DNA from: Actinoallomurus spadix
GTDB taxonomy: Bacteria; Actinomycetota; Actinomycetes; Streptosporangiales; Streptosporangiaceae
Reading direction: 5' to 3'
Assembly (NCBI RefSeq): GCF_024055725.1
Contig: NZ_JAMXMX010000032.1
Coordinates: 1-64,000, forward strand
DNA length: 64,000 bases
Position numbers and translations under genes: made by a program. Shown piece by piece: positions 3,231-16,334 of the stretch. The stretch's first letter is position 1. Each line of letters begins with the position of its first letter. The notes under the pieces are model-generated. The model saw only the letters and a program-made list of their open reading frames with translations. It had not been told where the DNA came from and made no database searches.

Positions 3231-5106
<1,876 letters not shown>

Positions 5107-12253: not shown

Positions 12254-13231
12254 TCACCGGGGAGCGGGGACGGTGGTGAGGATGCCCTCGAGCACGCCGT
12301 CCGTGGTCGCGCCCTCCAGCTCCGCCTCGGGCCGCAGCTGCACGCGGTGCCGCAGCGTCGGCCGGGCGAGTGCCTTCACGTCGTCGGGCCGTACGTAGTC
12401 GCGGCCGGACAGCCACGCCCACGCCCGGGCCGTCGCCAGCAGCGCCGTCGCGCCGCGCGGCGACACGCCCAGCTGCAGGGACGGCGACTGCCGCGTAGCG
12501 CGGCACAGGTCGACGATGTACCCGCTGACCTTCGGGTCGACGTGGACGCGGCGCACGGCCTCCCGGCCGGCGGCCAGGTCCTCCGGCCCCGCGACGGGCG
12601 TGACGCCCGCCGCGCCGAGGTCGCGCGGGTCGAACCCGGAGGCGTGGCGCTGCAGCACCGCGATCTCGTCCTCGCGCGACGGCACCGGAACGTTCAGCTT
12701 GACCAGGAACCGGTCGAGCTGCGCCTCCGGCAGCGGGTACGTGCCCTCGTACTCGACGGGGTTCTGGGTGGCGCAGACGACGAAGGGGTCGGGCAGCGGA
12801 CGGGGCTGCCCCTCCACCGAGACCTGCCGCTCCTCCATCGACTCGAGCAGGGACGCCTGGGTCTTCGGCGGCGTGCGGTTGATCTCGTCGGCGAGCAGCA
12901 GGTTCGTGAAGATCGGGCCCTCGCGGAACTCGAACTCCGACGTGCGGTTGTCGTAGACGAGAGAGCCGGTGACGTCACCCGGCATGAGGTCGGGCGTGAA
13001 CTGCACCCGCTTGAAATCGAGCTTCAGCGCCTGGGCGAGCGTGCGGATCAGGAGCGTCTTGGCGACACCCGGAACGCCCTCGAGCAGCACGTGCCCCCGG
13101 CACAGCAGGGCGATGACCAGGCCGGTCACGACGGAGTCCTGGCCGACGACCGCCTTGGCGACCTCGCCGCGCAGTGCGGTCAGCGCCGTGCGGGCGTCCT
13201 CGCCCCCGATGTCGTGTGGAGTTTCCGTCAA
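12254..13231 (-). CDS. MoxR-family AAA+ ATPase
   Basis: 325 aa with a TTG start that overlaps the stop of the upstream DUF4350 gene (TTGA). Walker A is EGVPGVAKT near residue 60, Walker B LLLADEINRTPPKTQ near 110-125, sensor 1 FVVCATQNPVEYEGTYPLPE, and a C-terminal lid helix bundle (SPSLQLGVSPRGATALL). MoxR ATPases act as chaperones for partner proteins with vWA-like domains, here presumably the DUF58 protein encoded next. The rare start codon and overlap suggest its synthesis depends on translation of the gene before it. Confidence 0.94.
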   Translation of the reverse strand: MTETPHDIGGEDARTALTALRGEVAKAVVGQDSVVTGLVIALLCRGHVLLEGVPGVAKTLLIRTLAQALKLDFKRVQFTPDLMPGDVTGSLVYDNRTSEFEFREGPIFTNLLLADEINRTPPKTQASLLESMEERQVSVEGQPRPLPDPFVVCATQNPVEYEGTYPLPEAQLDRFLVKLNVPVPSREDEIAVLQRHASGFDPRDLGAAGVTPVAGPEDLAAGREAVRRVHVDPKVSGYIVDLCRATRQSPSLQLGVSPRGATALLATARAWAWLSGRDYVRPDDVKALARPTLRHRVQLRPEAELEGATTDGVLEGILTTVPAPR

Positions 13232-14415
13232 GAGTTGCGAACCAGCCTTTCCAGGTCGTCGAGGACGCCCGCGAGGCTCACGAGCCCGGCGTCGTCCACT
13301 GGGGGAGGACCGTACAGGGCGGCGCCGACCACGGCCTGCTCCTGGCCGGTGTGCGCCGCGACCGCGGCGACGATCTCGGCGGCCATCGCGGGGTCGGAGG
13401 CGGCACTGCGCGGCATGCCGAGCAGCGCGGTGAGCCGTTCGAGCGCGCCCGCGCGCAAGGCCTCCGCAGCCCGGTCGGTGGCCCGGCGGGAGCGGTAGAG
13501 CCGGGCCCGGCCCTCGACGGCCTCCGCGGAGCGCACGACGACCGGGAGCGGCTCGACCACGACCGGGCCGAGGCGCCGGGACCGCCAGAGCGCGACCAGG
13601 ACCACGGCGATCACGATCTGCAGCACCGCGAGCTTGACGCCGAACGGGAGGAGCTCGCTGAACGACTTGTGCCCGCCGCTGCCCGGCGCGGGCAGGTCCG
13701 GCAGCAGCCAGACGACGCCGGCCCGCCCCTCGATCAGGTTCATGGCCAGCGCGGCGTTGCCGTTTTCGGCCAGGTGCTGGTTCGTGAGCAGGCGGGACGA
13801 GCCGAGGACGGTGACCGTCGCGCCGCCCATCGGCAGCTGGACCAGCCCGGCCCCGCCGAGTCCGTCGAAATAGCAGGTGGTGGCCTCACCGGGCGCCTTG
13901 TAGGTGGTCGCGCCGAGGAAGTCGGCGTCGCCGGCGTACGCCGCCGCCGGCAGGGTGCAGCCCGGCGCGGGAGTGCTCCACGCGGACCCGGACGCCTCGA
14001 CGCCCGGGGCCAGCGCGCTCAGCGTCTCGCTGGAGGGGGTGACGAGGAGCCGGTCGCCGGGCGCGCCGCGCAGCGCGGTCAGGTCGGCGGCCACGAGGCG
14101 CTCGGAGCGGACGACCACGAGGACGGCGTCGGGCTGGGAGCGCAGGCGCTCGGCGGCGTCGGACGCCGTGTGCGCGACGGTCACGGGCGTGCCGTGCCGC
14201 CGCGTGATCTCCACGAGGGCCCGGGCGCCGTCCTGACCCGGCGAGTCCGGGTCGAGGGTCTCCGAGCCGGTGCGCGGGCGCATCAGGGCGAGCAGCACAC
14301 CGAGGACCAGCAGGGCGAGCACCGCGACGAGGATGCCGCGGGACCGCCGCCAGCGGCGCCGCGCGACCTGCCCCGCGGTGGCCGGCTCACCCGGAGGGGC
14401 CTGCACCGCCGTCAT
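13228..14415 (-). CDS. DUF4350 domain membrane protein
   Basis: 395 aa. One membrane helix near residues 28-45 ([18 protein letters not shown]) precedes a Rossmann-like DUF4350 domain facing outward (LVEITRRHGTPV, DAVLVVVRSERL). A second helix near residues 270-290 (LAVLQIVIAVVLVALW) leads to a helical cytoplasmic tail. It is a regular partner of MoxR/DUF58 operons and its function is unknown. ATG 14415 has AAGGAG upstream and overlaps the stop of a 23-codon reading frame in the 68-bp repeat (ATGA). Expression is thus probably coupled to the repeat-derived frames. Confidence 0.88.
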   Translation of the reverse strand: MTAVQAPPGEPATAGQVARRRWRRSRGILVAVLALLVLGVLLALMRPRTGSETLDPDSPGQDGARALVEITRRHGTPVTVAHTASDAAERLRSQPDAVLVVVRSERLVAADLTALRGAPGDRLLVTPSSETLSALAPGVEASGSAWSTPAPGCTLPAAAYAGDADFLGATTYKAPGEATTCYFDGLGGAGLVQLPMGGATVTVLGSSRLLTNQHLAENGNAALAMNLIEGRAGVVWLLPDLPAPGSGGHKSFSELLPFGVKLAVLQIVIAVVLVALWRSRRLGPVVVEPLPVVVRSAEAVEGRARLYRSRRATDRAAEALRAGALERLTALLGMPRSAASDPAMAAEIVAAVAAHTGQEQAVVGAALYGPPPVDDAGLVSLAGVLDDLERLVRNS

Positions 14416-14483
14416 GGGGCCTCCTTCGTCGGTCCCATGACCAAGGTGCTGTGCTGATTGATTCCCTCGCTCCGCTCGGTCAT
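14412..14483 (-). CDS. 23-codon reading frame in repeat copy 1
   Basis: On the minus strand it reads MTERSEGINQHSTLV then MGPTKEAP and stops at a TGA that overlaps the ATG of the DUF4350 gene. Its own ATG overlaps the TGA of the identical upstream frame. Its AAGGAGG serves as the ribosome binding site for DUF4350. A functional peptide is not established. The frame may simply be a coupling device carried by the repeat. Confidence 0.45.
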   Translation of the reverse strand: MTERSEGINQHSTLVMGPTKEAP

Positions 14484-14551
14484 GGGGCCTCCTTCGTCGG
14501 CCTCATGACCAAGGTGCTGTGCTGATTGATTCCCTCGCTCCGCTCGGTCAT
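14480..14551 (-). CDS. 23-codon reading frame in repeat copy 2
   Basis: It encodes the same 23-residue peptide as copy 1 except for Arg instead of Gly after the second Met. The ATG overlaps the TGA of the DUF4129 gene and the TGA overlaps the ATG of the next mini-frame, so both junctions are 4-bp ATGA overlaps. Translation is plausible because each junction is a textbook coupling signal. A function for the peptide is unknown. Confidence 0.45.
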   Translation of the reverse strand: MTERSEGINQHSTLVMRPTKEAP

Positions 14552-15201
14552 GGGACGCCTCCGAGCGGGACCGGGCGCGCGGCGCGCAGGCGGTCGTCGA
14601 GGTCGGCGAGCGCCCGGTAGCCGTCGGCGTCGCCCTGCCGTCCGCCGTACCAGACGTCGTCGAACAGGCGTACGCCCGCGGTGAGGGCGTCAGCGTGGTC
14701 GGGCAGCGCCGTCCCCGCCTCGGCCGCGAGTTCGTCGGCGGTACGGCCGGGCCGCGGCGGGACGATGGCGCGCTCCTCCAGATCGCGTGCGATGGCGCGG
14801 AGGCGTTCGCGGATGGCCTCGGGCCACCGGCCGGCGGCGGCGTGGCGTTCGGCCGTGGCGCGGTGGTCCTCGGCGGTGGTGACCGTCTCGGCGAGCAGGG
14901 CCTCGGGCGCGGCGGCGTTGCGGCGCACGCTGCCGATCCGCCACCAGACGGCGGCGACCACCACGGCCAGGATGACGAGCAGGACGACGATACCGAGCCA
15001 GCCGCCGCCCGCGCCGCCTCCGACGTCGGTGAACCGGTGGTAGAGGCCGTTGAGCCAGTCCTGGATCCTGAACAGGATCCGCTCGAAGAACGAGGGGTCG
15101 TCCTGGTGGTAGACCGGCTTGTTCAGCTCGCGGCGCGCCAGCTCGCGTGCGGGGTCACGGGCGATCGGCGGACCGCCGCCGTACCAGAGCGTCGGCGTCA
15201 T
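14548..15201 (-). CDS. DUF4129 domain membrane protein
   Basis: 217 aa. The N-terminal part contains FERILFRIQDWL, a membrane helix (WLGIVVLLVILAVVVAAVWW, about residues 75-95) and a cytoplasmic DUF4129 region (AIRERLRAIARDLEERAIV...GRTADELAAEAG, then VRLFDDVWYGGR). It belongs to the MoxR envelope operon and its function is unknown. I chose the ATG at 15201 because it overlaps the upstream stop as ATGA; an ATG three codons earlier (15210) is also in frame. Confidence 0.86.
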   Translation of the reverse strand: MTPTLWYGGGPPIARDPARELARRELNKPVYHQDDPSFFERILFRIQDWLNGLYHRFTDVGGGAGGGWLGIVVLLVILAVVVAAVWWRIGSVRRNAAAPEALLAETVTTAEDHRATAERHAAAGRWPEAIRERLRAIARDLEERAIVPPRPGRTADELAAEAGTALPDHADALTAGVRLFDDVWYGGRQGDADGYRALADLDDRLRAARPVPLGGVP

Positions 15202-16334
15202 CGGTGCCATCCCGGGGGCGGGGGCGCCACGAACGACGGGCGCGGCGTCTTCGGCTGGGGGCCGGACCCGGCGGCCGTGAGCGGGCCGGGCAGCCAGGCG
15301 GCGAGCGGATCGTCCGCCGGTTCGAGCTGCGACTCCAGGTCGAACGCCTCACGCCGCATGCGCCGGTCGGCGTAGATCAGGGTGATCACTCCCGCGTTGA
15401 ACGGGTTGACGAGCGTGCCGGCGATGATGCGGCCGACCCCGCCGACCGCGATGACGGCCACGAGCAGCCAGCCGTGCGGCTCCTTGTCGAAGGCGAGGAA
15501 GATCTGCTGCGCGATCGCGAACGGCACGGGCAGCACCAGGAACTCGACGAAGATCGTGATGACCAGTGCCAGGGTGAGCACGCCCATCACCCGCCACCAG
15601 CGGCCCCGCACGATCTCCGTCGAACGGCGCAGCGCGGCGCGGACGCCCCGGCGCTCGAGGACGGCGATGGGGGTGGCGAGGGCGAACCAGACGTAGCCGA
15701 CGACCATCAGTCCCAGCGCCAGCGGGATGCCGAGGACGGCCGTGAGGGCCTGGACGCCGGTGGGGGCGTGGACCAGCACCGACGCGACGAGCGGGGCGAT
15801 GGGGAGCGCGATGGCGAGCAGCACGACCGCGAGGATGGCCGTCGCGGTGCCGGCGAGGCGGCCCTTCACGGCGCGCACGTCACGGCAGGCCTGCCCGAAC
15901 GAGGTGCCGTGGCCCAGCAGCGTACGGCCCATGACCGGGGCGAGGAGCCCGCTGAGCAGGAGCACGACGTACGCGGTGAGGAACAGCCCGACGAGTGAGG
16001 TCATCGACGCCGGGCCGAGCACGCCGACCAGGTCCGCGGGGCTCTCGACGTCGACGTGGAGCCGGCCGCCGAGCACGATGAACTGCGCGGCCGTGAGGAT
16101 CACCTGGACGATCGACGTGAGGATCGCCGACAGGCCGAGCGCGGCGCGCGGGCTGCGGCGGACGTAGGTGATCGCTCCGTCGAGGAGCTCGGAGACGCCG
16201 AGCGGCCGCAGGGGGATCTCGGTCACCGGCGTGTCGTCGGCGACGGGCGGGGGTGCCGGCGGCGGAGCCGCGGCGGCATCGGCGGTTTCGGGCATGGCGG
16301 AGCCCGGAGCCGCCCAACCCGGTGCGTCGGTCAT
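15198..16334 (-). CDS. Multi-pass membrane protein, first gene of the MoxR operon
   Basis: 378 aa. A Pro/Ala-rich cytoplasmic N-terminus (residues 1-45) is followed by about six hydrophobic segments between 60 and 310, for example LSAILTSIVQVILTAAQFIV, LVGLFLTAYVVLLLSGLL, and LTLALVITIFVEFLVLPV. Motifs such as LGVSELLDGAITYVRRSP match the membrane domain family once annotated as glycerophosphodiester phosphodiesterase membrane domain (DUF7544/7847-like). No phosphodiesterase catalytic domain is present. It is divergent from mtnA and should share a promoter region 16335-16492. An envelope role is inferred from the operon only. Confidence 0.8.
   Translation of the reverse strand: MTDAPGWAAPGSAMPETADAAAAPPPAPPPVADDTPVTEIPLRPLGVSELLDGAITYVRRSPRAALGLSAILTSIVQVILTAAQFIVLGGRLHVDVESPADLVGVLGPASMTSLVGLFLTAYVVLLLSGLLAPVMGRTLLGHGTSFGQACRDVRAVKGRLAGTATAILAVVLLAIALPIAPLVASVLVHAPTGVQALTAVLGIPLALGLMVVGYVWFALATPIAVLERRGVRAALRRSTEIVRGRWWRVMGVLTLALVITIFVEFLVLPVPFAIAQQIFLAFDKEPHGWLLVAVIAVGGVGRIIAGTLVNPFNAGVITLIYADRRMRREAFDLESQLEPADDPLAAWLPGPLTAAGSGPQPKTPRPSFVAPPPPGWHR

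Follow-up and report, generated by a model that had tools for sequence, protein, structure and literature searches.

The junction between a DUF4129 gene and a DUF4350 gene is filled, in the 64,000-nucleotide stretch of Actinoallomurus spadix DNA analyzed (hereafter the window), by a tandem pair of 68-bp units on the minus strand, each unit being an end-to-end 72-nt ORF flanked by ATGA (Table 1). Genes for a MoxR-type AAA ATPase and a DUF58 protein lie further on the same strand. The two units are identical at all but 2 of their 72 positions, and TRF reports them with period 68, 2.1 copies and 97% match (14411-14554), which scores highest among the window's 17 rows. A preliminary description of this DNA, which stated no strand, had placed two near-identical 68-bp units exactly between the DUF4129 stop and the DUF4350 start, each a reading frame with its own ATG and all three junctions being ATGA overlaps; TRF, the ORFs (14480-14551 and 14412-14483) and Pfam agree with this picture. 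The Shine-Dalgarno-like AAGGAGG noted in each unit is found as well, GAAGGAGG lying four bases 5' of the next ATG in both. No Rfam family matched positions 14300-14700 at E<=1. Matches to DUF4350 were found in 50 of 60 genomes, own included.

Copies were searched for with R1, a sequence-only model built from 16 host copies, and with R2, a structural model of the unit. A further candidate in the window, at 3815-3878, was rejected, being weak (R1 E 0.017; R2 E 0.71), devoid of RTGA bounds and located inside long ORFs.

Table 1. Position of repeat units, overlaps, hairpins and flanking genes in the window
Feature	Position	Strand	Evidence
Unit 1, RTGA-to-RTGA element, ORF MTERSEGINQHSTLVMRPTKEAP plus stop, net 68 bp	14480-14551	-	R1 76 bits, E 1.7e-22 in window (unit 1 itself in model)
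Unit 2, second tandem copy, 72-nt ORF	14412-14483	-	R2 66.2 bits (unit 2 absent from R2)
ATGA, DUF4129 stop / unit 1 start overlap	14548-14551	-	sequence
ATGA, unit 1 stop / unit 2 start overlap	14480-14483	-	sequence
ATGA, unit 2 stop / DUF4350 start overlap	14412-14415	-	sequence
3' hairpin of unit 1, TCATGAGGCC..GGCCCCATGA, unit 2 start codon in stem	14480-14508	-	folds; covariation, 45 copies
3' hairpin of unit 2, TCATGGGACC..GGCCCCATGA, DUF4350 start codon in stem	14412-14440	-	folds; covariation, 45 copies
DUF4129 gene, upstream partner	14548-15210	-	PF13559, 2.2e-17
DUF4350 gene, downstream partner	13228-14415	-	PF14258, 1.6e-26

The unit is dispersed in the host genome (8.02 Mb, 71 contigs). 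A DNA search gave 33 matches at E<=1, and R1, with the best 150 of 14464 first-look candidates scored, gave at least 91 matches at E<=10 and at least 41 at E<=0.01, both window units included; the 41 matches exclude a chance origin of the units. Among the best 30 host matches, 21 stop on the start of a downstream ORF (at least 80 codons) or a few bases from it, 5 run into another listed unit, and by this criterion 4 (L039, L050, L057 and L059) do neither. All seven genus mates match R1, with at least 10 to 93 matches each. At E<=0.01 the model matches 34 of 60 genomes: its own, the 7 genus mates, 16 of the 29 remaining members of the family, and 10 of 23 from elsewhere, of which many show a single weak match only. 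In a class-wide draw 23 of 394 genomes, own included, match at E<=1e-5. The unit is not a one-off, a possibility that the preliminary description had left open.

R2 matched at E<=0.001 all 17 genomes searched, with 2 to 131 matches each, the maximum being reached in A. iriomotensis. In the family of Nocardia abscessus R2 has matches in at least 57 of 401 genomes, and units there precede genes whose Pfam matches are ribosomal protein L23, the acetolactate synthase small subunit, GatB, methionyl-tRNA synthetase and NADH dehydrogenase chain 4L; among the ten N-terminal fragments of downstream genes analyzed, two had no Pfam match and one (a succinate dehydrogenase subunit) fell under the cut-off. 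One genome of this family holds four head-to-tail 77-bp units (L342, G780:C1 6642880-6643191), a length equal to that of the senX3-regX3 MIRU unit discussed below. An exact pattern on the 5' half of the unit retrieved 79 named stretches. The hosts are Actinoallomurus, Microbispora, Microtetraspora, Streptosporangium, Nonomuraea, Planomonospora and a Streptosporangiaceae bacterium of unnamed species; Actinopolymorpha, Kribbella, Nocardioides, Micromonospora, Phytohabitans, Paractinoplanes and Catellatospora; Saccharothrix, Solihabitans, Nocardia, and one contig labelled Melainabacteria. The latter (L212, CAJCJE010000993.1) carries a full 80-bp unit, and is possibly a mis-binned actinobacterial contig. 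No unit match was found in plasmids, phages and viral contigs, and a vehicle of this type was dropped from consideration.

At the window junction the unit is missing from six of the seven genus mates, G007 having a plain ATGA and G002 to G006 a plain GTGA overlap; G001 carries two units and a 23-bp remnant, which starts at an internal ATGA and is still 2 mod 3 in length. At 22 loci outside the genus, no unit was found within the ~260 bases inspected at this junction. Fourteen host junctions (DUF4350 and thirteen others) were compared by eye with the genus mates. Nine of them (DUF4350, L032, L033, L040, L041, L043, L045, L046 and L049) have a clean empty site, the same two flanks being recognisable around a single RTGA in a mate. 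The L060 site shows a single RTGA in G004, G005 and G006, yet the upstream gene end differs, and it was not counted as clean; L036, L038, L042 and L048 have no clean empty counterpart among the genus mates compared. As read by eye, the host 5' tetranucleotide is that of the empty site in eight of the nine clean sites, the 3' tetranucleotide in five, sites too few to tell a target duplication from an end borne by the element. At L049, upstream of a cytidylyltransferase-like gene read as nadD, no long ORF ends at the 5' RTGA, and TAAGGT directly precedes ATGA in G007; the target may therefore have been a leaderless start.

Depending on the species, 0, 1, 2 or 3 units are found at orthologous junctions, and many copies are common to G000 and G001. 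Tandem units at the DUF4350 locus differ by 0-2 changes within species and by 4-6 between two species, as counted by a script that allows loose mismatches, scans whole loci and returns several chance-like hits, used otherwise in support of the by-eye counts. These distances point to local duplication or homogenisation, by which an array could lengthen leaving the operon intact. Dispersal, empty sites, copy-number variation between species and the length rule described below all fit the earlier suggestion of a mobile or expanding element suited to ATGA junctions.

Some ends deviate. Tandem units at L045 and L233 (G000:C48, G001:C11) have GCGA or GCGG instead of RTGA at the 5' end, the empty G007 site being ATGA. 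At L058 (G000:C22:29593-29645) a 3' unit remnant follows an upstream frame without 5' RTGA, and by eye the decayed unit seems now to be the tail of the upstream gene. Comparison by eye of L224 (G001:C55) with L060 suggests that a truncated 5' piece of a unit has become the N-terminus of the downstream gene.

Net unit length is 68 bp in Actinoallomurus, and mostly 68, 77 or 80 bp in the related units of other genera. Pattern matches in named loci are 91, reduced to 83 by leaving out 8 without a defined 3' end. Lengths are 2 mod 3 in 74 of the 83 copies (80 bp in 52, 77 bp in 9, 68 bp in 5, 107 bp in 4, 104 bp in 3, 71 bp in 1). Five lengths are 1 mod 3, three of these being 49-bp calls at an internal ATGA in Micromonospora copies which also have an 80-bp end, and further exceptions are copies of 69 bp (0 mod 3) or with decayed ends. 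Of the 66 copies that could be evaluated, 52 have an upstream ORF of 60 codons or more whose end coincides exactly with the 5' RTGA; among 7036 control RTGA sites taken from these loci the share is 28.8%. By a loose test, a four-base Shine-Dalgarno-like match precedes the next start in 69 of the 83 copies. The internal ORF runs from end to end of the units, except in 69-bp copies and in L200, an 80-bp copy with an internal stop. The preliminary description held that any number of copies would keep the coupling intact; the frame is indeed kept, the net 68 bp being 2 mod 3, and the coupling itself stands as a prediction from the letters. A 104-bp Actinopolymorpha unit (L192:6158-6265) has its 5' half repeated internally, as if a copy had inserted into a copy and part of it decayed.

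The 3' end of the unit is a stem in which TCATG.. pairs with ..CATGA, the next start codon being inside. In alignment A2, made up of window unit 1 and 44 of 85 extracted units (those left out include 69-bp, 71-bp and seven 104- or 107-bp units), 92.5% of cells are paired, versus 73.2% in shuffled alignments and at most 50.3% when the arms are slid. Double changes occur in these 45 diverse copies at 7 of 10 pairs, with a covariation of 0.416, a value reached in 0 of 500 shuffles, versus 0.115. Complementarity drops from 9.72 to 8.37 of 12 (sd 0.10, 500 swaps) once the tails of 81 distinct units are exchanged among them. The last 40 nt fold with a mean z of -3.05, all 78 named units being below 0; the effect is moderate for the last 34 nt of the genus units (mean z -1.5, 27 of 35 below 0). 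In 15 of the 35 genus units a pyrimidine-rich arm faces the Shine-Dalgarno stretch and can pair with GGAGG according to a loose test, and the TCATG arm is present in 10. The window units folded singly are barely better than shuffles (z -1.11 and -0.85), the structure given by RNAalifold for the 16 host copies is weak, and 3' pairing is poor in the seven 104- or 107-bp units (7 or 8 of 12). The hairpin is convincing only in the cross-genus comparison.

We hold with good confidence that the units are tandem copies of a dispersed repeat, once or still mobile, which lacks its own enzyme gene, has RTGA start codons as insertion sites and leaves translation across the junction coupled. The repeat would insert at RTGA, in practice at start codons, by enzymatic transposition, leaving RTGA at each end and thereby doubling the start codon. 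The original start or overlap would then become the beginning of a 24-codon frame (counting the stop) that terminates in an overlap with the displaced start, and ribosomes bound for the gene would translate the mini-ORF and be handed on by termination-reinitiation. The start codon, often along with the Shine-Dalgarno-like stretch, would be held in the 3' hairpin; an arriving ribosome would open the stem and stand ready to restart, and the handover would thereby become obligatory. Tandem copies would arise and homogenise locally, any number of them preserving the frame.

The mini-ORFs might instead constitute a functional family of small proteins (MSERSER...), spread like a gene cassette, a reading that we consider highly improbable. 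A MSERSERI..HS N-terminus recurs across genera and Arg4 shows free variation at its four-fold site, but most of the recurrent stretch is set by the search pattern itself, the C-terminal halves are unlike between unit types, and the other synonymous sites (GAG, AGC, CGA) are nearly fixed, as if DNA or RNA mattered, a bias which the pattern favoured. None of the 35 genus units 72 nt long is interrupted by a stop, which proves little because only units of this length had been picked and a stop was possible at few of the variable codons. In the 35 distinct 68-bp Actinoallomurus units, selected by a loose pattern, differences per site are 0.333, 0.297 and 0.275 at codon positions 1, 2 and 3. Codon positions diverge about equally, hence it is probably not the peptide that matters. 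The mini-ORF peptide appears to be under no visible selection, the frame probably serving as a ribosome bridge, and a peptide function is disfavoured by the absence of codon-position bias. The units had been taken for mini-genes in the preliminary description; as there is no excess of changes at third positions, they are probably not genes with a selected peptide.

Local copy-number change and homogenisation, plain at the window locus, indicate that recombination acts on the repeat, and G000 and G001 have many copies in common, as would be expected of an old, immobile family of intergenic spacers in which empty sites are precise losses and dispersal results from recombination or gene conversion between junctions. 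This is unlikely: at the window junction the losses in six of seven genus mates and at the 22 loci outside the genus would each have had to leave exactly one RTGA, and in other families units precede different genes. Nor do we favour a mobile element of the IS200/IS605 style. In IS200/IS605, guides of the TCAY type pair with the ends, and a Y1 transposase moves single-stranded DNA. The terminal hairpin sets TCAY opposite RTGA, in a few copies both change together (TCAC or TCGC with GTGA), and the closer agreement of the 5' than of the 3' RTGA with the empty sites fits such guides. No clear left-end hairpin and no autonomous copy were seen, however, and PF01797 (Y1_Tnp, E<=1e-5) had no match in G000 to G006 and three in G007; thus it was not found in seven of eight Actinoallomurus genomes, including the one richest in matches, and a resident Y1 transposase as the mover is unsupported. 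A Y1 transposase gene was found in 14 of 30 genomes searched. Such an element is a quite improbable source of the units. REP/BIME and other non-autonomous elements derived from IS200/IS605 are, as the present units, short, palindromic, dispersed and without a gene of their own; REP/BIME-type elements differ in that they sit in untranslated intergenic space, and in their Y1-type enzyme, the one missing from the searches of the seven genomes.

The preferred reading, a start-codon repeat without its own enzyme, can be extended, tentatively and with considerable doubt, to a class-wide actinobacterial superfamily living on start codons. The RTGA-TCAY hairpin would guide insertion at the DNA level, by some enzyme, and enforce ribosome handover at the RNA level, MIRU being the mycobacterial branch. 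The stem would covary and the peptide would not because one hairpin does both jobs.

Mycobacterial interspersed repetitive units (MIRU), reportedly described by Supply et al. in 1997, are 46-101 bp long and widely used in strain typing. The present unit is likewise a short dispersed repeat (68 bp, at least 41 host matches at E<=0.01), located at start codons or stop-start overlaps, with an end-to-end internal ORF (few exceptions), a coupling predicted at -4 nt, and variable tandem number (0-3 units at orthologous junctions). It differs in host, Actinoallomurus instead of mycobacteria, and in length, 68 bp here and 68-107 bp elsewhere. On the best reading the unit would work like a MIRU, the likeness being one of published architecture. 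An architecture that inserts at start codons is not new in kind: in the accessible text of PMC12548453, MIRUs are described in the same terms, as apparently mobile units which insert at start codons and have an internal ORF coupled at -4 nt. The tandem units lying between senX3 and regX3 are given as 77 and 53 bp in the part of PMC4213456 at hand, both lengths being 2 mod 3. The start-codon 3' hairpin is not mentioned in the available portions of these two descriptions (PMC12548453, PMC4213456). As far as the accessible text of PMC2639699 goes, two published senX3-regX3 intergenic probes, whose placement inside a unit is not established, lack GAGCGNAGCGAG. Coupled small ORFs of mycobacteria are RTGA-linked and precede genes, and the example shown keeps coupling, not peptide (PMC4633059, available sections); they differ in being single, on leaderless transcripts and not a dispersed repeat, and the word MIRU is absent from those sections. 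A MIRU primer pattern matched 1 of 401 genomes (no M. tuberculosis complex among them), with one mismatch; this hit lies within a long ORF, neither the second primer nor the probes accompany it, and it is therefore a chance match. Among top-ranked titles and beginnings of abstracts, most subscription papers being beyond reach, none reports such repeats outside mycobacteria.

To our knowledge, how MIRUs spread and how operons tolerate them is unsettled. Both questions become open to experiment in non-pathogens, since soil actinomycetes have this architecture in dozens of copies, with empty sites between related species and a start-codon hairpin that covaries. A further consequence is that repeats, not genes, account for some of the start sites and short ORFs annotated in actinobacteria.
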